From a virus: DNA of 35,679 nt. Of this stretch, positions 7,205-33,307 are shown in pieces. Positions within the stretch are counted from its first letter, which is position 1. Each line of letters starts with the position of its first letter. The stretch is from positions 1-35,679 of the IMG/VR virus record IMGVR_UViG_3300046718_000604; one strand, given 5' to 3'. Below the pieces are notes generated by a model. That model saw only the letters and a program-made list of their open reading frames with translations. It was not told where the DNA came from and did no database searches. Position numbers and translations under genes: made by a program.

Positions 7205-7402
7205 TTAGGGTGTGAGTTTGATCTGTGGGGCGTCGAACTGGGCGATCTTAGCCTCTCCGTTGTGGAAGTGGAGGGTGATCGGACCCGTGTATTTCCGATC
7301 ATGGAGGGCTTGGAGGAGCGTACTGAAGTCGGACTCCACAGACCTCGGTGGGGCGAGGAGTTGATCCAACCGATCGAGTAGAACGAAGGTTGGAGGGCTC
7401 AT
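7205..7402 (-). CDS. Hypothetical protein (65 aa)
   Basis: The ATG overlaps the portal stop as ATGA, so it is translated with the portal. The protein reads MSPPTFVLLDRLDQLLAPPRSVE, followed by a helix (FSTLLQALHDRKYTG) and a beta-like end (ITLHFHNGEAKIAQFDAPQIKL). No motif is recognised. It is followed by a 144-base gap, the longest within the structural genes. Confidence 0.65.
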   Translation of the reverse strand: MSPPTFVLLDRLDQLLAPPRSVESDFSTLLQALHDRKYTGPITLHFHNGEAKIAQFDAPQIKLTP

Positions 7403-9525
7403 TTCTTGGAGGTGGAAATGGTCTGCCGCCCGCCGGGTTTGTCACCCTTGGTTTCACTATGGGCGGGTGCCTCGTTGGTGGCCTTCCGCCCCTGAGCATT
7501 CGCCACCATACCAATACCCAACATCTGCTGAGCCTGTAACCGTTCGGTGATGGTCGTCGGGATGCGGATCTCCAGGATCTGTCCAGACGGGTCAAGGAGG
7601 TACTGTTTCCCGCTGGCCGGGTCCACGTAGGGCGAGGGCATCTGGCCTTGGAGCAACTGTTGCTGGGCCTGCATCTGCATCGCCATGACGATCTGGGGGT
7701 CTACAGGCCGCAGCGGCGGCAGTGGAATGGCGGGCGGTGCACCGACATTGGGCGTTTCCATCACCTCGTGGAAGGTCCAGAAGTCCACGTAGCCCATGGT
7801 GGCCTGCTGCATGGTCTGCATCTTCCGCTCGGTCGCGTGCATGGCGAGGATCGAGTTCGGGGCGGCGACGAAGATGAACTGCTTCGTCATAAACTGGGCA
7901 CGTTGATCCGCGGTGGTGAGATCGACGTCCAGTTCGGGGACATAGCCGGACTGACCGGGTTTCATGGCCGGGACGAGCTTGCCTGGGTCGAAGTCGAAGT
8001 CCTCCAGCACCACACCGGCGTCACCGAGGATCATTCTCCGTTTGGTCTGATCCAAGTACTGGAAGTAGTTGACCTTGGTCATCTCGGCCAGATCGCGCAT
8101 GAAGGCTTCGACCTGACGGGCCTCCTGACGGATCTCGGGGGTCAGGGCTTCGTAGTACTTTTCGATGGTGTCAGCTGACGGAAGCTGTCGCAGCTGGAGC
8201 AATGCTGCGAGGTTCGCTGTCCCTGACAGGTCATTATGTTTGGTGGTGAGTTTGTCCCACAGTTCACTACAGAGTTGGAGGGCTTGGGCCGAGGGACCCT
8301 CCTGCCGCTTGTAGGCATCACCGAAGGAAGGATTCACCTTGATTCTCTTACCCGGACGCCGCGGGTCCAAGCCACGCATAGTGGACTCGCTGACCGCGTT
8401 CCGGTTGTAGATGACATCCGGGTCGATCCACTGCTGGATGCCTAATCTCAGGTCGTTCACCGTGTCGTTGATCGCATCCTGCACAGGCAGCAGATCATTA
8501 AACAGAGGAATCCCGAGGAGTTGCCACGGCACACTCCACAACCGCAGTCTGCACACTGGGAACATCCCGTGGCCATAGGTGTTGGGGCCATCGTAGAGAA
8601 TGATCTCGTCGGTCGAGACCACCAGTCGGCCTCTGGGGTACATCGGGGCGTTCGGCTGGACGGTGTAGGCCCAGGCAGCCCCCGGAGTGCCCATCACGAT
8701 CGAACGGTTGGTCAGGTTGCGGGTGCGGTCGTGGAAGTAGGTCCGGTAGAGGCAGACAGAGCCGGCTCGAGCCTGACGACTGTGGGTACCCGCTTGGCCG
8801 AGCGCATCCAGCGGATCGGCCGGGGTGAGCAGTCTCGAGGCCGCTGTACGGAACTTGCCCATGACCCTGCCGAGGGCCGTGTCAGTCGCCGGGCGGAAGT
8901 AGGGAGCCTTGGTCGGGTACATCCCGCGGAGGGCGTTGACGGTGTGTTCTTCTCTGAGGGTCACGCCTTCCCAGAGTTGGAGGCTCCTCGACTGGGAGGG
9001 GCGGATCGGTAGGGTGTCCCGAGGATCTCTTGCCGAGAGAGCGTTGGCCCCACCGAAGGGAGCATGGGGATCCCAATCCACCACGAGGTCGCCCGTGCCG
9101 GCGGCGAGGCCGTATTTGATACAGTCGCCTAACTCCAGGTCTGCGAGGGTGGTGACCCATTCCGCCACAGCATATTTATTCAGGAGATCGGCTTGGACCT
9201 CGTAGGCCGGGTTCATGGTCTTCCAGCCGAAAACAGGCCGAATATCGGTCAGGGCGGAGACATGCGCCTGCACAGCCTTGCGGGATTCGTTGATCACGAC
9301 CTGTGGGAGGTACTTCAGCCGCTGGCGTTCAGGGCTGAGCTGTTCTCCAACGATGTAGGACAGACTCCGGCTGATCTGATCGTAGGAGGGATCCGCCCGG
9401 TTGATCCGGTCACCGTCCTGCACCGCCTCCTTGATCCACCCCAACACGCGGGGATCACCTCTCAGGAGGGATTCGGCGGTGGTCGGGGGCAGATCGAGGA
9501 TGCCGGAGCTACTGAATTCGGCCAT
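7399..9525 (-). CDS. Portal protein (708 aa)
   Basis: The portal forms the dodecameric ring at the vertex through which DNA enters and leaves. It is 708 residues long, within the range of large portals, and follows the terminase by two genes. The N-terminal half is helical with a typical early region (SYDQISRSLSYIVGEQLSPERQRLKYLPQVVINESRKAVQAHVSALTDIRP), the middle is beta-rich with GYVYDGPNTYG-like strands (DEIILYDGPNTYGHGMFPV), and the C-terminal third contains a long helical stretch (ALTPEIRQEARQVEAFMRDLAEMTKVNYFQYLDQTK) and a Gln/Met-rich tail (IVMAMQMQAQQQLLQGQMP). The start is fixed by the adjacent upstream stop codon. The call relies on length, pattern and synteny. Confidence 0.8.
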   Translation of the reverse strand: MAEFSSSGILDLPPTTAESLLRGDPRVLGWIKEAVQDGDRINRADPSYDQISRSLSYIVGEQLSPERQRLKYLPQVVINESRKAVQAHVSALTDIRPVFGWKTMNPAYEVQADLLNKYAVAEWVTTLADLELGDCIKYGLAAGTGDLVVDWDPHAPFGGANALSARDPRDTLPIRPSQSRSLQLWEGVTLREEHTVNALRGMYPTKAPYFRPATDTALGRVMGKFRTAASRLLTPADPLDALGQAGTHSRQARAGSVCLYRTYFHDRTRNLTNRSIVMGTPGAAWAYTVQPNAPMYPRGRLVVSTDEIILYDGPNTYGHGMFPVCRLRLWSVPWQLLGIPLFNDLLPVQDAINDTVNDLRLGIQQWIDPDVIYNRNAVSESTMRGLDPRRPGKRIKVNPSFGDAYKRQEGPSAQALQLCSELWDKLTTKHNDLSGTANLAALLQLRQLPSADTIEKYYEALTPEIRQEARQVEAFMRDLAEMTKVNYFQYLDQTKRRMILGDAGVVLEDFDFDPGKLVPAMKPGQSGYVPELDVDLTTADQRAQFMTKQFIFVAAPNSILAMHATERKMQTMQQATMGYVDFWTFHEVMETPNVGAPPAIPLPPLRPVDPQIVMAMQMQAQQQLLQGQMPSPYVDPASGKQYLLDPSGQILEIRIPTTITERLQAQQMLGIGMVANAQGRKATNEAPAHSETKGDKPGGRQTISTSKK

Positions 9526-10032: not shown

Positions 10033-10569
10033 CTAGGACGACCAGATGTCCTGACAAATTTTGTCAACGATCTGTTTCACGAGGGATTCCACCGAAATTC
10101 CCCGTTTGGTGGCGCGGTGGGCCAGTTCTTCCCACTGGCCAGGAGTGAAATCCACGTCGATGGTGCCGATCGTCAGGTGAGCAAGGCGTGTGGCCGCGGT
10201 AACGAGGTGCTGAGGAGTGTCGGTGGATCCAAACCCGAGGGCGCGGGCCACCTCGGCGCGATCCGCTCCGGTCAGGGTCAGGGCGTGCTCGTCGACCGGG
10301 ATGTATTCCTGCTGGTAGACGTCGGTCGGGAGGACCGCGAGGACGGTGGATCCCCGGCTGATGACCCAGTTGCCGGGATGGCCGAGGGAGTTCATCCCGT
10401 TGGCGAGGACGAACCGGCCTTCTGCCTCGAGCTGGGTGGCGGTCAGGGGTTCCACCTGGATCCGTGGACGAACCTGCTTCTTCAGCGGGACCGTCTTAAG
10501 CGGAGGAGCGGTCGCTGCCGAAGTAGAGGCTGTCGGGGGCGTCATCGTCGATCCCTTCTCGGGCATCAT
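10033..10569 (-). CDS. Putative RHH-domain protein (178 aa)
   Basis: The C-terminal 45 residues (IGTIDVDFTPGQWEELAHRATKRGISVESLVKQIV) look like a ribbon-helix-helix: a beta strand, then two helices joined by a short turn of the GISVESLV type, as in Arc/MetJ-like repressors. The middle has a PGNWVISRGSTVLAVLPTDVYQQEY segment resembling the PGD-type domain found in phage proteins of unknown role. The N-terminus is low complexity. It starts with two in-frame ATGs behind AGGAG and overlaps the terminase by 74 bases. DNA binding is plausible but unproven. Confidence 0.6.
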   Translation of the reverse strand: MMPEKGSTMTPPTASTSAATAPPLKTVPLKKQVRPRIQVEPLTATQLEAEGRFVLANGMNSLGHPGNWVISRGSTVLAVLPTDVYQQEYIPVDEHALTLTGADRAEVARALGFGSTDTPQHLVTAATRLAHLTIGTIDVDFTPGQWEELAHRATKRGISVESLVKQIVDKICQDIWSS

Positions 10570-12760
10570 CCACTCCTAAGTTCTGATCCTCGGCTGTCGA
10601 TGCGGAGTTTCGAAAGTCTCGCTTGGGTCCACCGGTGGTGGCCAGATGCGCCACCATGGCGTCTCTCCGCCGCCGACGTTCAGCGACGGGTTCGGCTTCA
10701 CCACCCGCGGCTTGATGAGCCACATAGTAACCGATCGCACTGGAAAAGATGGCGTCATCGTGCTGGCCCCGGGCGTGCTCAGCATCCTCCAAGGCCCCTT
10801 CGGTCACGAAATGGTGGAGTTCTCCACGGGTGACGGTGGAATTCAGCCGGAAGTCGGCCACACCGCTCAAGGGGTCTCGGGTGGTCACGGCATCGTGGAA
10901 CTTCTCGATCAGGAGCGGTCGGGTGCGAGCAGACGTGAGCCACCCTATTCGTCGAGTAAACCTCGACGAGGCGTCGGCGGCATCGACGACCTCCCAGATG
11001 TAGAAATTGGAGTAGCCAAGGTGGAGTTGGAGGAGATTCTGGACCACGGCGCCGTGCTTCTCCAACTCGATCGCGGCGAGGGCTTCGAGGCCGTCTTCAT
11101 CCGTGTAGAACCGGCCGATCGCATCGGCGATGAACGCGATCTGGGCGGGCCGAATCGTATTCGACACATACTGGGCCACATCCTCGGCGGGTTCTTCGAT
11201 CGTGGGCTCTCGCACCACGGTAATGACCGTGTAGTCCTGCCCGATCCCGTCGCCCGCGTCCACCGCCATGTAGTAGCGACGTCTCCCTCGGGCCCGGGGG
11301 TATTCGAAGATCGTCAGGACCGAGGCTCTCAGGGATGGAAGTTCCTGGAGTTCGGGACCGCTGATCCGTCTGAAGCCATAGCCCGGGGGCACAGGGTACT
11401 GCTCCGCTTCTCGGACTGGCATTCGCGTGCTGAGTGGGGCAGCCGGGCGTGTGTCGGCGTGGAGAGCTGCGGCTTTCGGGTCGTCCAGATCGGCATGGCG
11501 GAGTTCGGCGATCTCTCGGCTCGGTTCCACCGCCCAGACATCGCGGATCGGTCGGGCAGACTGATCGATCGCTTGGAGTTCGTCGAGGGTGAACACACTT
11601 CTCCCGGCGTACTGGAAGGATTCCTCGGGATTGGAGGGGAATTCCTTCAGGAAGGTGTGGAGGTTGCCCTTTTTGAGGTAGTAGGCCCGGGTAGATTCAT
11701 ACCAATACAGTTGGTCCCGGGTGAGATCGAGCTTCCTGCCGATCCAGCGGGGACAATCTCTGTCGAGTTGCGCGGCGACCTTCAGGGTCTCGGTCGACGG
11801 ACTCCAGTCAGTCGGTGCTGGCGAGGAGTATTTGCTCGCCTCCACACACCACGGGATGAACTGGTTGACGAACCGGCCTTCCCCGTCTTCAGCGGCCAGC
11901 CACTGCTGATGCCACCAATCGCCTGCGAGTTCGGCGGTGGATTCAAAGAGGACCAGCACATCGGGGTTGATCGGGATGCCGGGGAGGAGGGAGGAGTCGA
12001 GCTGTTCGGGGTTGTCCCAGGTGGCTAACTCAGAGATGTGGACTACCGAGTTGGTACGGCCTCTCTCGATATTGCCCTTCTTCCCGCCAACTTCCTGCAG
12101 GGCTCCACGGGTGGTTTTGCCCCACGCGGTTTTGATCGACGAGTGGTTGGTGAGATGGAGTTCTCGACCGGCGCTGTAGGGCACGGCCCGTTCGGGTTTG
12201 AGGAACCACGGGAGGTGGTCGTAGATCCGTTCGACCATCCGGAAGAGGTAGCGGGCCTGTTCCTCGGTGTCGGACCCGGCAATGGCGCGGATGTACGGCT
12301 GCTGGAAGATCCGCTGGCTCACCAAGGCCATTCCGAGGGTACTGATGCCCAGCTGACGGGCTTTGAGAATATTCAGCAGGAGTCCATCGCGAGACTTCGT
12401 ACGATACCGCTGCATCTCCAAGGTGGCCAGCCGGTCGAGAACAAACTGCTGCGATTCCCAGAAGGGGTAGAGCGGCCGAATCCCGTGGCCCTCCTCGTCA
12501 ATCACCACGAAGGTCTGGAGGTAGAAGGGGGTGTCGTAGGTCGCCCGTAGCTTGGCGGTCGCAGCGAATTGCTCCTCCTCCTCGGTGAGGGATCGCATCG
12601 GTTCTCCGGCGCCATCGCGACTCGCGACGATCTGGGCCGTCAAGGCTCGAGCGTCATCGACGCTGTAGGTGGGGAATCTCCCCGAGGGAAAGAGCGACCC
12701 GAAACGAGGATCCCGAAGGATTTGTTCGTCCCGGGCCGCGATGAGGCGGGGATGGTACAG
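10496..12760 (-). CDS. Terminase large subunit, packaging ATPase/nuclease (754 aa with CTG start)
   Basis: This is the motor that packages DNA into the prohead. Counting from CTG at 12760, a Walker A-type KARQLGIST lies near residues 133-141 and a Walker B-type VVHISE near 239-244; the RNase H-like nuclease is marked by MAVDAGDGIGQDYTVI near 499-514 and HDD near 667-669. The start is unusual. The first ATG, GTG or TTG in frame is TTG at 12643, which has no ribosome binding site. The frame is open upstream to a CTG at 12760 placed five bases after AGGAG, right after the upstream stop, and the extra 39 codons look coding (ARDEQILRDPRFGSLF). ATC at 12739 is a second, weaker possibility. Confidence 0.9.
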   Translation of the reverse strand: MYHPRLIAARDEQILRDPRFGSLFPSGRFPTYSVDDARALTAQIVASRDGAGEPMRSLTEEEEQFAATAKLRATYDTPFYLQTFVVIDEEGHGIRPLYPFWESQQFVLDRLATLEMQRYRTKSRDGLLLNILKARQLGISTLGMALVSQRIFQQPYIRAIAGSDTEEQARYLFRMVERIYDHLPWFLKPERAVPYSAGRELHLTNHSSIKTAWGKTTRGALQEVGGKKGNIERGRTNSVVHISELATWDNPEQLDSSLLPGIPINPDVLVLFESTAELAGDWWHQQWLAAEDGEGRFVNQFIPWCVEASKYSSPAPTDWSPSTETLKVAAQLDRDCPRWIGRKLDLTRDQLYWYESTRAYYLKKGNLHTFLKEFPSNPEESFQYAGRSVFTLDELQAIDQSARPIRDVWAVEPSREIAELRHADLDDPKAAALHADTRPAAPLSTRMPVREAEQYPVPPGYGFRRISGPELQELPSLRASVLTIFEYPRARGRRRYYMAVDAGDGIGQDYTVITVVREPTIEEPAEDVAQYVSNTIRPAQIAFIADAIGRFYTDEDGLEALAAIELEKHGAVVQNLLQLHLGYSNFYIWEVVDAADASSRFTRRIGWLTSARTRPLLIEKFHDAVTTRDPLSGVADFRLNSTVTRGELHHFVTEGALEDAEHARGQHDDAIFSSAIGYYVAHQAAGGEAEPVAERRRRRDAMVAHLATTGGPKRDFRNSASTAEDQNLGVDDAREGIDDDAPDSLYFGSDRSSA

Positions 12761-25294: not shown

Positions 25295-25511
25295 GTTGGC
25301 GAAGCATATCTTTGACACGGGCGTGAGCATGAACCGCGTCTTGGCACGGGCGGTGGCGGACGGTGGAGGGGGACTACTGCCCCACATCTACCTGCTGGAG
25401 GGCAGCCTGAGCTACGCAGCCCTCGGCGTGTTCTCGACGCGAGCGAAGGCCGAGGCCGTGCAGCGGAATCTCGACTTCCCCACGACCATTCGGGAAGAGG
25501 TGGTGTACTGA
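25281..25511 (+). CDS. Hypothetical protein (76 aa)
   Basis: ATG at 25281 has a GGAGGAAGGAG upstream. The protein starts MDGTELAKHIFDTGVSMNRVLARAVADG and contains a short hydrophobic-like stretch and a beta segment (LSYAALGVFSTRAKAEAVQRNLDFPTTI), with no motif I can name. It is coupled to the ERF gene by TGATG. Confidence 0.6.
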   Translation: MDGTELAKHIFDTGVSMNRVLARAVADGGGGLLPHIYLLEGSLSYAALGVFSTRAKAEAVQRNLDFPTTIREEVVY

Positions 25512-26329
25512 TGGAGAATGGACTGAGCCCCGTCGGAAAGATCCCCCTCGCGACCCCTATCCCGGCGTCCACCCCGGAAGTACCGGGATCGCCTAGCAAG
25601 GTAGGGTCCGTCGGGAGCGGAGGAGCTGGGACCGACGGGGCTCCTCGCCCTCCTACTGGGGAGGAGATCAAGCAGCAGGCTGCCAGGGAGCGGGAGGAGC
25701 AGATCAAGGCGGCTCAGGAGGATGCTCGACTGGGTGTCCGACGGTCTGCCACGATCGGCAAGCTGGTCCTCGCGCTATCGAAGGCGCAGGGCCAGATCAA
25801 GCCGGCGCTGCGGAAGTCGGACAATCCCTTCTTCAAGTCGAAGTTTGCCGACCTCGCCGCGACGTGGGATGCCTGTCGGGCTGCACTGGCGGAGAACGAG
25901 ATCGCGGTGATCCAGCCGGTGAAGACCTCGGGGACCGTCGTGGTGGTGACCACCCTGCTGGCTCACAGCTCAGACGAGTGGGTGGAGGAATCTCTCACCA
26001 TGCTGGCGGCACAGAACACCCCGCAGGCCATCGGGAGCACGATCACCTACGCTCGCCGATACGGCCTCGCAGCGATGGTGGGGGTGGCACCGGAGGATGA
26101 TGACGGGCAGGCAGCCTCCACCGATCTCCCACCGAGTGTGAAGCAGGACACCGGAGTCAGGAGCAACCTGCAGCGGTCAGCGGGATCTGGTGTCAGCGAT
26201 GAGATCCAGACGCCACAGGCCGCGGTCGTCAGTCGGCCGATCGCCTCACCTCGTCCCATGGTCAGTGCAGTCGGGAATCCACCCCCACCACCCGGACCCA
26301 AACCGCCTGAACGGGCACCAGGATCGTAG
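25511..26329 (+). CDS. erf: ERF family single-strand annealing protein (272 aa)
   Basis: The ATG at 25511 shares the TGATG junction. The core has the ERF landmarks: LRKSDNPFFKSKFADLAATWDACRAAL near residues 100-126 and AIGSTITYARRYGLAAMVGVAPEDDDG near residues 173-199. The N-terminus is Pro/Gly-rich and the C-terminus Pro-rich and probably disordered. ERF proteins anneal complementary single strands during phage recombination. It follows a RecB/Cas4-like nuclease and precedes an uncharacterised protein, a common grouping. Confidence 0.9.
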   Translation: MENGLSPVGKIPLATPIPASTPEVPGSPSKVGSVGSGGAGTDGAPRPPTGEEIKQQAAREREEQIKAAQEDARLGVRRSATIGKLVLALSKAQGQIKPALRKSDNPFFKSKFADLAATWDACRAALAENEIAVIQPVKTSGTVVVVTTLLAHSSDEWVEESLTMLAAQNTPQAIGSTITYARRYGLAAMVGVAPEDDDGQAASTDLPPSVKQDTGVRSNLQRSAGSGVSDEIQTPQAAVVSRPIASPRPMVSAVGNPPPPPGPKPPERAPGS

Positions 26330-27052: not shown

Positions 27053-27107
27053 TGAACAGCCGTGTGGTCCCGAGCGGTGGGTCGGGGCACCCTTGAAGGA
27101 GTTGTGT

Positions 27108-27335
27108 ATGCCGCGCACCGCACCCGATCCGATCATCCCGTGTCTCCGGTTCTTCGAGGAACAGCCGCTCGATCTCGCCCAGCAGGCCCTGAGCCTGGCC
27201 AAGGAGATCCTCCGTCGACGTCATACGGGCGAGTCGGTCCTCACCGCGAAGGGGCCGAAGATTGATCCGCCCAAACGGAAGCGGACACCACCGGCGCAGC
27301 TCAACGATGGTCCGTTGGAACTCGCGAAGGAATGA
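27108..27335 (+). CDS. Hypothetical basic protein (75 aa)
   Basis: The start at 27108 (MPRTAPDPIIPCLRFFEEQP) is preceded by AAGGAG. A helical middle (DLAQQALSLAKEILRRRHTG) and a basic Lys/Pro tail (GPKIDPPKRKRTPPAQL) are visible. It overlaps the glycosyltransferase gene by four bases. Function unknown; DNA binding is possible from charge. Confidence 0.6.
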   Translation: MPRTAPDPIIPCLRFFEEQPLDLAQQALSLAKEILRRRHTGESVLTAKGPKIDPPKRKRTPPAQLNDGPLELAKE

Positions 27336-28489
27336 CCAAGACCCCCTTCATGCTCGTCGGCGACGGACCTGCAGACCCGACCGGCCTCGGCCGCATCGCG
27401 AGGGATTTGGCCGGGCTAATCGTGGCGAGCGACCTACCGGTGGAGTTTGTCCAAGTTGGAGGGAGCTGCCCACCTCCATGGACCGCGTGGCGACACTTCC
27501 CCCTCGATCGATCAGACGACTGGGGAGCCGCCTGCACCGCGAGGTACTGGCAGGATCTCTTCGGGACACAACCAGGGATTCTGTTCACCGTGTGGGATCC
27601 AGGGAGGTTGGTTGACTACGCCAACCTCGATCTGCCGGTGCAGAAGTGGGCCTATACGGCCATCGATGCCACGAATAGAAATGGGGTCATCAATGGTCCC
27701 GCGGCAGCAGCCCTGAGCCGGTTCGATCGGGTGCTGGCGTATGGACGGTGGGGGGCTGAGGTCCTGAAGGCCACCTACGGGAAGGAGATCTCCTACCTCC
27801 CCCACGGGCTAACACCTGTGGTGTTCGCGGCACCTCCGAGTCCGGAGGAAGCGAAATGGGTCGCAGCCACGCTCGGGCCCCATGTGGGTACTGCTGACGT
27901 GTTGGGAATGGTGGCTGCGAACCAACCGAGGAAGGACTTCTCGATCTTCTTCGAGACCCTCGCCCTCCTCCGCCACCGCGGTCGGCATGTCTACGGCTGG
28001 CTCCATACCGATACCCCCGTGAAGGCATGGGCGGTGGCGCAGCTCGTGGAGGACTGCGGGCTGCAGCAGCGGATCACCCTGACCTTGGATCAGTTCACCG
28101 ACCGGCAACTGGCCCTGCTCTATCAACGCTGTGGCTGCACGATGCTGACCTCACTGGGAGAAGGCTTCGGGTATCCGATCGTGGAGAGCCTCGCCAGTGG
28201 AACCCCAGTGGTCAGTGGTGAGTGTGCGGGAGGGCGTGAACTCCTGCCCAAGGCCGCATGGAAGGTGCCCGTCAGGATGCAGCGCACCGAGAGTGTCTAT
28301 GCCCTCAAACGGCCGGTGTTCCTCGTGGAGGACTGGGCCAATGCGGTCGAGCGGGCGATGGGGTGGAAAGCACAGGTTGGGGCTGAGGTAGCTGGAGCAT
28401 ACTGCAGAGGCGCCGTGGCTCACCTTGACTGGGCGGCGTTATGGCCTCGCTGGAGAGGCTGGATTCGTCAAGGGTTGGAGGGCCGATGA
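27332..28489 (+). CDS. Glycosyltransferase, GT4/GT-B type (385 aa)
   Basis: The C-terminal domain has the EX7E signature EGFGYPIVE (Glu277 and Glu285), a PHGL element near residue 157 and ANQPRKDF near residue 196, the usual landmarks of GT-B family 4 enzymes that use nucleotide-sugar donors. The N-terminus starts DGPADPTGLGRIARDLA, a donor- or acceptor-side loop. There is no membrane segment or signal peptide. It opens the sugar cassette on the early strand. Confidence 0.8.
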   Translation: MTKTPFMLVGDGPADPTGLGRIARDLAGLIVASDLPVEFVQVGGSCPPPWTAWRHFPLDRSDDWGAACTARYWQDLFGTQPGILFTVWDPGRLVDYANLDLPVQKWAYTAIDATNRNGVINGPAAAALSRFDRVLAYGRWGAEVLKATYGKEISYLPHGLTPVVFAAPPSPEEAKWVAATLGPHVGTADVLGMVAANQPRKDFSIFFETLALLRHRGRHVYGWLHTDTPVKAWAVAQLVEDCGLQQRITLTLDQFTDRQLALLYQRCGCTMLTSLGEGFGYPIVESLASGTPVVSGECAGGRELLPKAAWKVPVRMQRTESVYALKRPVFLVEDWANAVERAMGWKAQVGAEVAGAYCRGAVAHLDWAALWPRWRGWIRQGLEGR

Positions 28490-28761
28490 CCACGACGTCT
28501 CGTATCAGCGGGAAAGCCATCCTGATCAACTTCGACGAACTGAGCGGGGAACAGGCCCTGCTGGCAGAGATCACCATCGACTGTCCGCACTGTGGCAATC
28601 ACAGCCTGCGGATCGCGGGGCATCACCTCCGCACCCTGCAGCGCCTGCTCGCGGAGTGGATTGAAGACTTTCCTGATCTCACCGGGAATGAATCCGGGAT
28701 CGAGGTCATCAACCGCATGAAGTACGGGGGCACTCCGCCAACCGAACCGAGGATGAACTAA
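28486..28761 (+). CDS. Zinc-binding hypothetical protein (91 aa)
   Basis: The ATG overlaps the glycosyltransferase stop (ATGA). CPHCGNHSLRIAGHHLRTLQRLLAEWIED carries a CxxC with following histidines that could complete a zinc site. The start MTTTSRISGKAILINFDELSGEQALLAEITI is beta-like. Function unknown. Confidence 0.65.
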   Translation: MTTTSRISGKAILINFDELSGEQALLAEITIDCPHCGNHSLRIAGHHLRTLQRLLAEWIEDFPDLTGNESGIEVINRMKYGGTPPTEPRMN

Positions 28762-29108
28762 TGGGCCAAGAGAGTCGTTTGAATCCGTTCGCCAAGGAAC
28801 ACCGGGATCTCACGATCACCCCCGGACAGGTCCACGATGCCTTCAACCGGGTACTCCACGAAGGGGATCTGATCTTCCTCCAGGTGGCCGTGCCGCCGAT
28901 CTTCCGGGTGCACCGGATCACGAAGCCGCTCGATCCCAGCGCGCCGGCGAATCTATTGGAGATTACGGTCTCCAGCACGCTGAAGTTCGCCGCGCCACAG
29001 GGGCAGGTCAATCAGGAGTTCGTGCGGGTAATCGAAGCCAGCGAGGCTCAGCCACCCACCGCCAAGCCGAGTCTGGAGATCGTCCGGCCGGAGGAGCCGA
29101 CCCTATGA
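28761..29108 (+). CDS. Hypothetical beta-rich protein (115 aa)
   Basis: The start overlaps the previous stop by one base (TAATG). It contains DLTITPGQVHDAFNRVLHEGDLIFLQVAVPPIFRVHRI and LEITVSSTLKFAAPQG, a small beta-barrel-like pattern. No catalytic residues are recognised. Its stop overlaps the GT2 start. Confidence 0.6.
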   Translation: MGQESRLNPFAKEHRDLTITPGQVHDAFNRVLHEGDLIFLQVAVPPIFRVHRITKPLDPSAPANLLEITVSSTLKFAAPQGQVNQEFVRVIEASEAQPPTAKPSLEIVRPEEPTL

Positions 29109-29935
29109 GCCTGACCTTGGCGATTGTCACGGCCTCGACCAATCTCGAGCGGGCCAAGCCGTGTCTGCAGTCGTGGCGGAAGGATGACGAGGTCCCACTG
29201 ATCATCGTGCTGCAGACCGACGCTGACGACTGGAGAACGGTCGTCACGGCTACTCACGTCGTGAGTCGAGATTATCTCGGCACCGTGCCAGCCTTTCGGT
29301 TGGGGGTGGACTATGCCCTCCGCGAGACCGATGCCGACATCATCGCCTGTCTCCATGATGATGTGGAGCTGCTCCAGCCGGATTGGATCCAGCGGACGAT
29401 TCGACATTTTGAACTGACCGAGAACTGTGGGCTGCTCGGGTTTGGTGGGGCCATTGGCCTCGGAGCCGATGACATCTACAAGAAGCCCTACGACCCGATG
29501 CAGCTGGCGAGGATTGGATTCCGGTCGAATCTGGTCGATGCCGAGGTGCACGGACTGCGAAGTCTGTTGGCTGAACCAGTCGCGTGTCTCGATGGATTCA
29601 GTCAGGTCGGGCGGAGAGCCTTCTTCGAAGGAGACGCCAGCCCCCACACGCCCTCGTCTCAGGACTACGAACGCCCGTGGAGCTATCTGGAGGATCACGG
29701 GATTGTCCACCACCTCTACGACGGTCTCCTCGGGGCCCTCGCCGCTCGCCAAGGCTGGGAAGCGTGGTATCTGCCTATCCGGTGTCGACATCTCGGTGGG
29801 CAGACGGCCGTGGGCGATCAGGGCTATGGGGATTGGGCCAAGCAGCAGATTCCTGAAGGGGATCACGGCTTCTGGCAGGCGTCCCACAAGATCGGCTATG
29901 CGTTGTTCACCGATGTCCTTCCGTTGAGGGTGTGA
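29105..29935 (+). CDS. Glycosyltransferase family 2-like (276 aa)
   Basis: LAIVTASTNLERAKPCLQSW is a GT-A N-terminal donor-binding strand, and ACLHDDVELLQPDW (HDD near residues 84-86) is the DxD-type metal motif. GFSQVGRRAFFEG and WYLPIRCRHLGGQ resemble the acceptor-side elements of this family. It is the second sugar transferase in the cassette. The substrate cannot be read from the sequence. Confidence 0.75.
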   Translation: MSLTLAIVTASTNLERAKPCLQSWRKDDEVPLIIVLQTDADDWRTVVTATHVVSRDYLGTVPAFRLGVDYALRETDADIIACLHDDVELLQPDWIQRTIRHFELTENCGLLGFGGAIGLGADDIYKKPYDPMQLARIGFRSNLVDAEVHGLRSLLAEPVACLDGFSQVGRRAFFEGDASPHTPSSQDYERPWSYLEDHGIVHHLYDGLLGALAARQGWEAWYLPIRCRHLGGQTAVGDQGYGDWAKQQIPEGDHGFWQASHKIGYALFTDVLPLRV

Positions 29936-30198
29936 TGGCGCATATCAAACAGCGACGAGAAGCTCTGGAGGCCCAGCCTGATCCTGATCGGGTCCTCGGC
30001 AAGATCGCCCGGGTGTTCCCGCTGAAGGGCTTCGGGTTTCTCAAGGATGAAAACGGCGAGGAGTACTTCTTCCACCGGTCGGAGGTGCTCAGCGGCGGGC
30101 CGTTCGATGATCTGCAGGAGGGCTGGCGAGTCCAGTTCGTGAAGGGTCAAGGGCCGAAGGGGCTGAGAGCGTCAGAGGTTACAGTGCAGCGTCCCTAG
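29935..30198 (+). CDS. Cold-shock domain protein (87 aa)
   Basis: The start at 29935 shares TGATG with the GT2 stop. KGFGFLKDENGEEYFFHRSEV (residues 31-51) contains the two RNA-binding motifs (KGFGF and FFH) of a cold-shock domain. The N-terminus is a charged helix (HIKQRREALEAQPDPDRVLGKI). It may bind single-stranded RNA or DNA and regulate early expression. It lies inside the sugar cassette. Confidence 0.85.
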   Translation: MAHIKQRREALEAQPDPDRVLGKIARVFPLKGFGFLKDENGEEYFFHRSEVLSGGPFDDLQEGWRVQFVKGQGPKGLRASEVTVQRP

Positions 30199-30205
30199 TA
30201 CGTAC
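30196..30205. repeat. TAGTACGTAC element
   Basis: This 10-mer overlaps the cold-shock stop and occurs also at 21508-21517 in the convergent gap. Like the GTACTGATCAGTAC copies, it is a GTAC-rich element; here it too follows a gene end. Confidence 0.35.
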
Positions 30206-30256
30206 GTCTAAGGCCGTCTAGGCCGAAGACGGACGCATAGGTGGAGAAGGAGTGTT

Positions 30257-30451
30257 GTGGTGGCAAAAACAGCCGTCGTCAATCGAGCGAAAGCGTTACT
30301 GGCCTCACGGGTGAGCGGGCTGGCCTTCATCGACACCGCGATCATCGTGGACTTCCTCGCACTGGTGGAGAAGTTGCGGAAGGTGGCGAAGCGGGATCGG
30401 GAGCAGATTCGGAAGCTGAAGTATGCCCTCCATCATCGGGGGAAGAAATGA
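30257..30451 (+). CDS. Small basic protein (64 aa)
   Basis: Two GTG codons in a row (30257 and 30260) follow AAGGAG; either may be used. The protein is helical and basic (NRAKALLASRVSGLAFIDTAIIVDFLALVEKLRKVAKRDREQIRKL) with a tail KYALHHRGKK. No domain is recognised. Its stop overlaps the next ATG (ATGA). Confidence 0.6.
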   Translation: MVAKTAVVNRAKALLASRVSGLAFIDTAIIVDFLALVEKLRKVAKRDREQIRKLKYALHHRGKK

Positions 30452-31266
30452 TCTCGGTGACCTTCCCCGGACGAGCAGGCGATCTGCTCTGGGCCCTTCC
30501 AACTGTCAGAGCCCTCGCCGAGATCCACGGACCCGTGTCCCTGAGAATAGCCGGTGAGTTCGCCAGCATGCTGCCCCTGCTGCAGCAACAGCCCTACCTC
30601 AAAGTCGTGGTGGCCGATCATGCGTGGAGTCTCACCCCGCCGAATGACTGGCAGCCTCCTGTCGTGGAGGAGGGAGAGATTCATCTCGGCTACCGCGGCT
30701 GGCCGGATCAACCGCTGGCGCAGTACATCTACGGCACCTTGAAGTACCACTATCCCCATCTGGCGGTAGCAGGACTCGATCTGGAATCTCCGTGGATCAC
30801 GATTCCTCCGTTACCCAATTCATGGGGCACGACCTGTACCCCGGTCGGCTTCACCGAGGCGTGGTTCGAATTGAAGGTCGGCCTACTCCAGCTCTTGCAG
30901 CAGGAGTTTGCATGGACACAAAACCGGGAGGATGTCGGCTGGCCCACGACTGCCCTGATGCAGATGGCCACTCCGGGTGGTCGATGGGTCCTCGCAGGGT
31001 GGAGACCGTACACATGGGTAGAAGCCGCCGAGTTCATCACGGCGAGTAGCTTGTTCGTGGGGGACTGTTCAGCCCTCCATGTCCTCGCGGTGGCCTGTGG
31101 GACTCCGGTGATCGTAGTGGAACCGATGGAGGCGAGGTGGAATGGGATCTTCTATCCAGTCGGGAAGGTGGGGCGCGTACACCTGGTTACCGGCAACGAC
31201 GGACTCCCCACATTCGACGCTCGGCATGTCGCAGACACGATTCGAGGGGCGCTTAATGGGCGATGA
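30448..31266 (+). CDS. Glycosyltransferase, GT9/heptosyltransferase-like (272 aa)
   Basis: The start at 30448 (MISVTFPGRAGDLLWALPTVRALAE) opens with the GDxLxxxP strand typical of GT9. The C-terminal SSLFVGDCSALHVLAVACGTPVIVVEP fits the 'xGDSGxxHxAxAxGTPxVxxxEP' donor-binding region. GT9 enzymes add heptose or similar sugars, usually to cell-surface glycans. It is shorter than typical heptosyltransferases (about 340 aa), and the centre is atypical. Confidence 0.6.
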   Translation: MISVTFPGRAGDLLWALPTVRALAEIHGPVSLRIAGEFASMLPLLQQQPYLKVVVADHAWSLTPPNDWQPPVVEEGEIHLGYRGWPDQPLAQYIYGTLKYHYPHLAVAGLDLESPWITIPPLPNSWGTTCTPVGFTEAWFELKVGLLQLLQQEFAWTQNREDVGWPTTALMQMATPGGRWVLAGWRPYTWVEAAEFITASSLFVGDCSALHVLAVACGTPVIVVEPMEARWNGIFYPVGKVGRVHLVTGNDGLPTFDARHVADTIRGALNGR

Positions 31267-31957
31267 AGTCGTCACCACTCCGTATGGGAAATTCTTCGTC
31301 GACCCCGAGGACTGCATCGGTGGCACGCTGAAAGCCGGCACCATCTGGGACGGACCAGGATTCCTCCAAGTAGTCCTCAAGGACTACACGACAGTCGGCA
31401 CGACTGTCATTGACATCGGGGCCAACTTCGGCAGCTTCACGGTCTACTGTGCCTCCAAGGGCTACAAGGTGATCGCGGTCGAACCCATGCCGGAGACCCT
31501 ACGCTACCTCCGCGCCACCCTCGACCTGAACCAAGCCTCGTGTGCGGACAAGGTGATCCTCCTGCCGTTCGCGGCCTATGATAACCGCTGCTACCTCACG
31601 AATCGCGATTTCGTCCCGCACAACTTCGGCAGCCCGAGCTTAGTACCTATTCTGTTGGGCGAGATCTCGAATGAGCAGCTTGAGGCGGCTCCCCTCGACG
31701 ACTACCGGATGCTGTTCGGCACGGTCGGCCTGATCAAGGTCGATGCCCAAGGGTGTGACGCCGCGGCCCTCCATGGTCTCTCGACCACGATCCGTAAGCA
31801 GCACCCGGTGATCGTCTTCGAATGGGAGGAGGACATGGCCACGCCCCACGGCTACACACTGGAGCACACCCTCGCGTGGCTGGTGGAGTTGGGCTACCAA
31901 GTCATCCAGTGGCCGAGCCACCGGTCGAACTATCTCGCGGTCTGGGGGACACGGTGA
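31256..31957 (+). CDS. FkbM-family methyltransferase-like (233 aa)
   Basis: The start at 31256 has GAGGGG upstream and overlaps the GT9 gene by 11 bases. VIDIGANFGSFTVYCASKG (near residues 51-69) is the SAM-binding GxGxxG-type motif I and KVIAVEPMPETLRYL is the acidic motif with the following helix. LIKVDAQGCDAAALHGL further down fits the FkbM/Methyltransf_21 pattern (K-x-D-x-x-G). These enzymes often O-methylate sugars. It lies between two glycosyltransferases. Confidence 0.8.
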   Translation: MGDEVVTTPYGKFFVDPEDCIGGTLKAGTIWDGPGFLQVVLKDYTTVGTTVIDIGANFGSFTVYCASKGYKVIAVEPMPETLRYLRATLDLNQASCADKVILLPFAAYDNRCYLTNRDFVPHNFGSPSLVPILLGEISNEQLEAAPLDDYRMLFGTVGLIKVDAQGCDAAALHGLSTTIRKQHPVIVFEWEEDMATPHGYTLEHTLAWLVELGYQVIQWPSHRSNYLAVWGTR

Positions 31958-32367
31958 GACTGAAGAACTACGGAGCCGGCGAGGTGAGTGATCGACTGTC
32001 CATTCTCGCCCTGAAGCGGCTGTTCGGAACTGAGGCAGGCAAGGACGTCAAACACTTCGAGGCGGAAGGGGCCGTCCTCCTCAGCGAGATTCGGACCCGA
32101 ACCCTGAACGGCAAATGGTTCACGGCCTACACCGATCTGGCCGCGGTGAATGCCGCCCTCTGGCATGCGGAGGATGATCTGCGGAGTTGGCGGGAGAAGT
32201 ACAAAGATCAAACCCCGATCGACAAGGGCACCGCGATCTATAACTGGATGGAGGTGGGGAAACTCGCCTTTCGAATTCAATTTCTCAACGACCGTCGCGC
32301 CGAGCTGATCGGCCTGATCAACCACGATGCTGGTGATGTGTTGGGAGACGAGAAAATCAATGGCTAA
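31954..32367 (+). CDS. DUF6165-like protein (137 aa)
   Basis: The start is GTG at 31954 (GTGA overlap). The protein begins MRLKNYGAGEVSDRLSILALKRLFGT (GTG read as Met) and ends with KLAFRIQFLNDRRAELIGLINHDAG and GDEKING. The pattern 'xLAxxxxxxNDRRAxLxxxIN...EK' is what I associate with DUF6165 proteins, which are usually encoded among glycosyltransferases; their function is not known to me. The context agrees. Confidence 0.55.
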   Translation: MRLKNYGAGEVSDRLSILALKRLFGTEAGKDVKHFEAEGAVLLSEIRTRTLNGKWFTAYTDLAAVNAALWHAEDDLRSWREKYKDQTPIDKGTAIYNWMEVGKLAFRIQFLNDRRAELIGLINHDAGDVLGDEKING

Positions 32368-33307
32368 CCCCCTCCATGTGCTGCTGGTCACCTCGTGGGG
32401 TCAGCCCCAATGCGGCATTCAGGCGCATAGCGAGCAGCTGATCGACTACGTGAAACAGGCCGATCCCGACATCGTGATCACCCCGTCCGCCGACTCCCTC
32501 GATCCAGTCGAATGTGGAAAGCAGCCTCCACCGGTCGATGTGATCCACCTGAACTGGCACCGGGCCCTCCACTCCCGCTGGAGTCCGGCGTGGATTCGTC
32601 AATACCAACAGCTCGGAGTGAAATTCGTCGTGACCTGGCACGATACGATGGGCCATGAATCTCCCGATCAGTTGTCGAAGGAGGTCCACGACGTCGCGGA
32701 TGCCTTCATCGTCCACGAACCGGTCATCGGGCTGGAGCAGGCGATCTACTGGCGACAGGCGGTCCCGGAGATGAATGGCTACCAAGCAGACCGTACTGGG
32801 ATCTATGGGCGTCCCTTCGTGGGCTCGGTGGGGTTCGACTTCGGCTGGAAGAATTACGATCGCCTCTGTGAGATTGCCTATGCTGTGGGCTGGGGAGTCG
32901 CCCTGTGTGTGCCGGAGATGTCGAAGGATCGAGAGGCCGATCTCCGTCAGCGCAATCCATGGCTCGTCGTGCGGAGGAACGAAGGACTGCAAGAGGTCCT
33001 CGCCCTCCTCCATGTCTGCCAAGCGACCGCCTTCCTCTACGTGAATGGCAACTCAGGCACCTCGGCCGCGATCCGCATCGGGATTGGGGCGAGGAAGCCG
33101 GTGATCGCCATGGCTGGCCAGCGGCAGTTCAGGGATCTCCACGATGAGATGGCTATTCGCTGGGCCACGAGCATGGAGCACGCACAAGATCTCCTCGTGG
33201 GTCTGCGCTGTGGTGACTGGGATGGACGGACGGTCGAACTCGCGAATCGTGACAGCTGGAGACACGCGGGGCGGAAGCACGCCGAACTCTACAGGAGCCT
33301 CGTATGA
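32360..33307 (+). CDS. GT-B-type glycosyltransferase-like protein (315 aa)
   Basis: The start at 32360 overlaps the previous stop (ATGGCTAA). HVLLVTSWGQPQCGIQAHSEQLIDYVKQ is a GT-B N-terminal segment, VDVIHLNWHRALHSRW and KFVVTWHDTMG follow as in family 4 transferases, and AIRIGIGARKPVIAM marks the C-terminal domain. The clear EX7E pair of GT4 is missing, so the enzyme may be divergent or non-catalytic. It closes the cassette. Confidence 0.6.
   Translation: MANPLHVLLVTSWGQPQCGIQAHSEQLIDYVKQADPDIVITPSADSLDPVECGKQPPPVDVIHLNWHRALHSRWSPAWIRQYQQLGVKFVVTWHDTMGHESPDQLSKEVHDVADAFIVHEPVIGLEQAIYWRQAVPEMNGYQADRTGIYGRPFVGSVGFDFGWKNYDRLCEIAYAVGWGVALCVPEMSKDREADLRQRNPWLVVRRNEGLQEVLALLHVCQATAFLYVNGNSGTSAAIRIGIGARKPVIAMAGQRQFRDLHDEMAIRWATSMEHAQDLLVGLRCGDWDGRTVELANRDSWRHAGRKHAELYRSLV

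Follow-up and report, generated by a model that had tools for sequence, protein, structure and literature searches.

Uncultivated soil phages carry a cassette of glycosyltransferase and methyltransferase genes that, with a confidence no better than evenly balanced, we read as a virus-dedicated pathway that puts a methylated oligosaccharide, made from host nucleotide sugars, on a virion protein. The cassette was studied in an IMG/VR record of a tailed soil phage, whose 35,679 bases constitute the window, i.e., the whole stretch of DNA analysed. Late genes of the window lie on the - strand and early genes on the + strand, and the cassette is on the + early/replication strand. The relevant features are as follows.

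7399-9525, - strand: portal, late gene
10496-12643, - strand: terminase, late gene
25511-26329, + strand: Erf annealing protein, early gene
27332-28489, + strand: GT4-family (GT-B fold) glycosyltransferase (PF13692, phrog_2170, conserved residues)
28486-28761, + strand: small Zn-ribbon-like protein, backbone gene with a homologue in cassette-less relatives
28761-29108, + strand: small conserved protein between GT4 and GT2
29105-29935, + strand: GT2-like (GT-A fold) glycosyltransferase (PF13712, predicted structure)
29935-30198, + strand: cold-shock-domain protein (PF00313, 4.6e-11), backbone gene also in cassette-less relatives
30257-30451, + strand: 64-aa short ORF overlapping the GT9 start, status uncertain
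30448-31266, + strand: GT9-fold (heptosyltransferase-like) glycosyltransferase (predicted structure)
31256-31957, + strand: FkbM-family SAM-dependent O-methyltransferase (PF05050, TIGR01444)
31954-32367, + strand: DUF4254/DUF6165-like glyco-accessory protein with a GTG start (PF14063 in family)
32360-33307, + strand: second GT-B-type glycosyltransferase (GTB2; weak GT4 N-domain matches, virus-only family as far as searched)

By portal and terminase, the isolates closest to this phage are the Tunturiibacter phages Tunturi_1 and Tunturi_2, which infect Acidobacteriota and are also of soil origin; Tunturi 1-3 are reported to be podoviruses (PMC11924767). With an identity of only 23% in portal and terminase, a host among Acidobacteriota or other soil bacteria is a guess. 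The annotation covered for Tunturi_1/2, 50 kb out of 63 kb, includes no such cassette.

A sequence-only reading of the window had named GT4, GT2, cold-shock and FkbM genes, and matches to Pfam, PHROGs and NCBIfam bore these out. The GT4 protein matched PF13692 (3.6e-11, 44 bits against a cut-off of 27) and phrog_2170 (2.3e-23), and its K201 and the EX7E-type glutamates E277 and E285 were invariant in 20 homologues. The GT2 protein matched PF13712 (6.9e-7); its HDD motif at 84-86 was nearly invariant, with N at the middle position in one of 20 homologues, and its predicted structure (pLDDT 92) has a GT-A fold. FkbM matched PF05050 (3.5e-15, 57 bits against a cut-off of 22.7) and TIGR01444 (76.8 bits against 37.7). 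A search with the proposed GT9-like protein found no Pfam family at E<=1 and no NCBIfam family at E<=0.01. Its structure model, built with 12 homologues (pLDDT 80), aligned with 241 residues of E. coli WaaC (VIA Z 18.1, far above unrelated rows) and also resembled the GT9 structure 3tov (Z 17.7), and D12, E141 and K143 were invariant among homologues. The GT9 fold was confirmed at the level of this model.

The protein at 31954-32367 had been labelled DUF6165-like. All 11 members of its family matched DUF4254 (PF14063; best 9e-8), the protein of the window itself scoring below the cut-off, whereas DUF6165 (PF19662) was matched by one of the 11, at E 0.014 and without reaching the cut-off. By these profile matches the protein is closer to DUF4254 and should be labelled DUF4254-like. 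A literature search for DUF6165 and DUF4254 returned nothing beyond incidental mention. The second GT-B protein that the same reading placed at 32360-33307 held up: its GT4 N-domain matches are only weak (E 0.008), but the family is conserved in 13 genomes. PDB sequence searches with the GT2, GT9 and GTB2 profiles gave no significant match.

In the run that begins with an 80-aa ORF at 27093 and ends with an ORF whose start is 33304, nearly every gene overlaps the next by 1-11 bases, with one 58-base gap (counted with the corrected starts 30448, 31256, 31954 and 32360). A promoter and terminator scan, which included terminators inside the cassette, revealed nothing above chance. Because the genes overlap and no internal terminator stood above chance, co-expression is predicted, and the cassette genes are predicted to be translationally coupled. 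The earlier proposal of a sugar-modification set on the early strand is supported, and the set is real and co-ordinated. No homologues of GT2 or GTB2 were found in isolated phages. In a comparison of the window with G001, a 76-kb relative whose GT4, GT2 and GTB2 proteins are ~97% identical, dN/dS was 0.06-0.14 for the four glycosyltransferases, while FkbM and the DUF protein each gave 0.23. Judged from these ratios, the glycosyltransferase genes are under purifying selection.

The cassette comprises nine genes and is cut by the end of the window, which contains its first two thirds. In G001, G003, G005-G009 and G013-G015, the next genes of the set encode a sugar C-methyltransferase (in G001, PF08484 1e-54 and PF08421 2e-11) and a second GT2 (GT2b), with a third GT-B in G001 and G009, before a UDG-DNA polymerase A fusion is reached. 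The pathway had been called complete, which was not sustained because the window cuts the set and relatives add the C-methyltransferase and GT2b. A search for the gene set in other phages, which had been recommended, found the order GT4-GT2-(helicase)-GT9-(FkbM)-DUF-GTB2-C-MTase-GT2b-UDG/PolA in at least 12 of them, as far as the contigs extend. This common order, together with dN/dS of 0.06-0.23 and the invariant catalytic-type residues, argues that the cassette is not a chance finding.

The UDG domain fused to a family A DNA polymerase (L013:10929-13937 in G001, and equivalents) closes the cassette region where carrier contigs extend that far, and non-carriers have homologues at the corresponding end. 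Macro-domain-like proteins were seen by eye amid the cassette genes (G003:20506-20952, G013:28349-28966, G015:21387-21980), as were YpsA-like proteins in G003 and G007; a role related to NAD or ADP-ribose is possible for these genes. No nucleotide-sugar synthesis gene is visible in the window, as had been noted from its sequence. The divergent relative G009 has a GDP-L-fucose-synthase-like enzyme inside its cassette (NF047922 2e-52, below the curated cut-off), the sole epimerase-family enzyme among 20 genomes. Genes beside GT4 homologues of greater divergence gave PHROG matches that include nucleotide-sugar epimerase (3) and aminotransferase (2).

When viral contigs were scanned with a GT4 profile, 55 loci emerged, about 50 of which belong to the family by HMM score, and most GT4-family loci had a GT2 relative within ~5 kb. 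In 84,980 species genomes, GT2 and GT4 pattern scans detected neither a cellular homologue nor a prophage copy, and a cellular source of the cassette was rejected on this basis. Because the first loci had been recruited through glycosyltransferases, a second scan was performed with the portal protein. It yielded 12 long contigs (46-72 kb) not recruited in that way, 11 of which were without GT2 and GTB2; six of the 11 are ~70 kb, and the shorter ones may miss the cassette region. Recruitment through glycosyltransferases had suggested that the cassette is a core gene set of the clade, but the portal scan gave near-full relatives without it.

The five cassette-less relatives whose slot between ssb and the polymerase was read kept the backbone there (Zn-ribbon or cold shock, helicase, and a methyltransferase relative), while the glycosyltransferases were absent. 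The cold-shock gene is therefore a backbone gene, and the cassette is interleaved with the backbone rather than being one inserted block. The sequence-only reading had correctly located the cold-shock protein inside the cassette, but it is not a member of the pathway. GT2, GT9, GTB2, GT2b and the C-methyltransferase were present in 11 of 11 carriers and in none of 10 non-carriers; the corresponding carrier counts were 10/11 for the DUF protein and, with two contigs that start inside the cassette, 9/11 for GT4, again against 0/10. Carriers were defined by GT2/GT4, and the informative part of these counts is the co-occurrence of the remaining genes. In this comparison of relatives, the cassette is either inherited as a whole or missing as a whole.

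On the portal tree, the cassette trait needs two changes, compared with a mean of 7.8 after shuffling. The deep rows are all carriers, the two deepest on long branches; one clade lost the cassette, and G015 within that clade has it. The probable history is an ancestral cassette with loss in a single clade. Two carriers have a tyrosine integrase in their cassette/replication slot, as do four of the five non-carriers whose slot was read (G005:3186-4313, G015:22271-23374, G054:15159-16451 and others), and part of the clade may be temperate.

As to the acceptor, the host surface, the virion and DNA had all been suggested. DNA looks unlikely, the host surface is without its usual membrane partners, and the virion is favoured by analogy. 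In the proposed pathway, the enzymes would be made in the early/replication phase, and the soluble GT4, GT2, GT9-fold and GTB2 enzymes, with GT2b in longer relatives, would act in turn on nucleotide sugars presumably taken from the host. The resulting short oligosaccharide would have its sugars altered by the FkbM O-methyltransferase and by the sugar C-methyltransferase encoded just beyond the window. This glycan would then be added in the cytoplasm to a putative virion acceptor protein before assembly.

Glycosyltransferase and sugar-methyltransferase genes are clustered here as they are in phage virion glycosylation systems. In addition, another glyco-module (GT2-TPR, PIG-L/MTase fusion, DUF6625 and C-MTase) lies on the late strand of the close relative G001, adjoining a gene for a collagen-like GPT-repeat fibre. 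The fibre, GT2-TPR, PIG-L/methyltransferase and DUF6625 genes are present twice as diverged copies (L011:4262-10116 and G001:70209-75917, - strand), which suggests that the module is a duplicated fibre-glycosylation unit; the sugar C-methyltransferase follows the first copy. Precedent and this module favour a virion acceptor. However, the cassette lies in the early/replication module and not among virion genes, and no virion gene tracks it perfectly across carriers. The best three late genes were present in 7/11, 7/11 and 6/11 carriers and 0/10 non-carriers; they follow phylogeny and are missing from the carriers G015, G009 and G008, and the search for a tracking late virion gene thus gave no candidate. 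Two late genes at 801-1586 of the window (- strand), encoding a zinc-finger-like and a ~150-aa protein, are present in most carriers and absent from non-carriers and from G015, G009 and G008. Glycosylation of collagen fibres was rejected as a general role because, of 48 cassette or GT4 contigs, just 5-6 had such fibres. The fuller reading is offered tentatively, as a possibility well short of probable: a virus-only, vertically inherited protein-glycosylation pathway with a gene content unlike known phage systems, in which a GT9 heptosyltransferase-like enzyme contributes to an O- and C-methylated oligosaccharide on the virions of a large uncultivated soil-phage clade, with block loss in one lineage.

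Remodelling of the host surface during infection or lysogeny is a doubtful alternative that still deserves weight. A surface glycan would be changed or extended, resulting in a superinfection block or an altered receptor. LPS core and O-glycans are the usual products of the GT9 and GT4 families, the GT9 model is nearest to WaaC, and WaaC-type enzymes do not require a membrane span. The integrases in the same slot of some carriers and of most cassette-less relatives read also suit temperate phages; however, no integrase was seen among the window genes searched, and the pattern scan found no prophage copy of GT2 or GT4. Moreover, the cassette is without a membrane glycosyltransferase, flippase, polymerase or acetyltransferase. 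Kyte-Doolittle analysis revealed no cassette protein with a clear transmembrane stretch, the GT9 protein (1.75) and the 64-aa ORF (2.08) being borderline. Conversion of the gtrABC type relies on a membrane flippase and a bactoprenol glycosyltransferase with transmembrane helices, and the cassette has neither; the lack of a clear membrane protein argues against classical O-antigen conversion.

An unlikely target is a host protein, cofactor or small molecule, modified for takeover or signalling, in place of the virion, DNA or envelope. The early-strand position of the cassette would suit such a target, as would the conserved class I methyltransferase and the Macro/YpsA-like genes amid the cassette genes of several relatives. 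However, at least five glycosyltransferases with O- and C-methyltransferases would be a large outlay for a small-molecule product, and direct support is lacking.

Least probable is hypermodification of phage DNA, in which the glycosyltransferases would decorate modified bases and allow escape from restriction. It would fit the interleaving of replication genes with the cassette and the UDG-DNA polymerase at its end. However, a thymidylate-synthase-family dCMP/dUMP hydroxymethylase was found in 0/13 carriers, several on incomplete contigs, while nine control genomes were positive, and a C5 cytosine methylase was found in only 1/14. A TET/JBP dioxygenase search matched 0/13 carriers and no control genome either. 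T4 DNA is glucosylated, whereas T7 DNA is unmodified. With these two phages of one host as controls, the log2 O/E of 6-base palindromes was -0.12 for T4, with none strongly avoided, and -1.59 for T7; carriers ranged from -0.27 to -1.53 and non-carriers from -0.72 to -1.39. Avoidance was slightly weaker in carriers than in cassette-less relatives (p = 0.054, relatedness not corrected), which slightly favours DNA modification, but carriers avoid palindromes like unmodified phages and therefore look restriction-sensitive. DNA glycosylation by the cassette is thus unlikely. AAGCTT, TTCGAA, GAGCTC, CTCGAG, AGGCCT and CAGCTG are strongly avoided across carrier genomes; as a footprint of host restriction, this avoidance could be of use in tracing hosts. 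Inspection by eye recognised no replacement DNA-modification system in cassette-less relatives, where the slot holds an integrase, excisionase-like and small genes.

If the proposed reading is right, roughly one tenth of the genome is given over to sugar-coating some target in an entire clade of soil phages, and our searches found no cellular relatives of the enzymes. Similar phages (~65% portal identity) with and without the cassette form natural pairs, whose comparison could address the role of phage glycans in the environment, including stability, adsorption and escape from host defences.

Several known systems resemble the cassette in part. In T4, the b-gt, a-gt and gene 42 genes for hmC DNA glucosylation are likewise early and near replication genes, but the hydroxymethylase gene adjoins b-gt, whereas cassette carriers are without a hydroxymethylase and keep restriction-site avoidance. 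The GT9-like protein resembles the GT9 heptosyltransferases WaaC (Z 18.1) and TibC (Z 15.2) in fold, but it is shorter, 10-15% identical and without a Pfam GT9 match. The Pontimonas phage phiPsal1 has a GT4 with 25% identity, after which come a SAM methyltransferase and a GT2, but its set comprises three genes only and belongs to the structural module, flanked by capsid and neck genes. For the mycobacteriophage Corndog, O-methyltransferase and glycosyltransferase genes have been proposed to modify the capsid (PMC4351075), and virion glycosylation of actinobacteriophages is reported in work cited in PMC13313380. These sets (Corndog gp35-gp38 and the others cited there) likewise consist of clustered phage-encoded glycosyltransferases with an O-methyltransferase. 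However, the Corndog genes sit between portal and protease, whereas the present cassette is in the replication module and is larger than Corndog-type sets, with at least five glycosyltransferases, a GT9 fold, a C-methyltransferase and a DUF4254-like protein. The enzyme families and phage virion glycosylation are thus known already; the gene content, the virus-only sequence families, the site in the replication module and the inheritance as a block are previously not described, as far as our searches extend.
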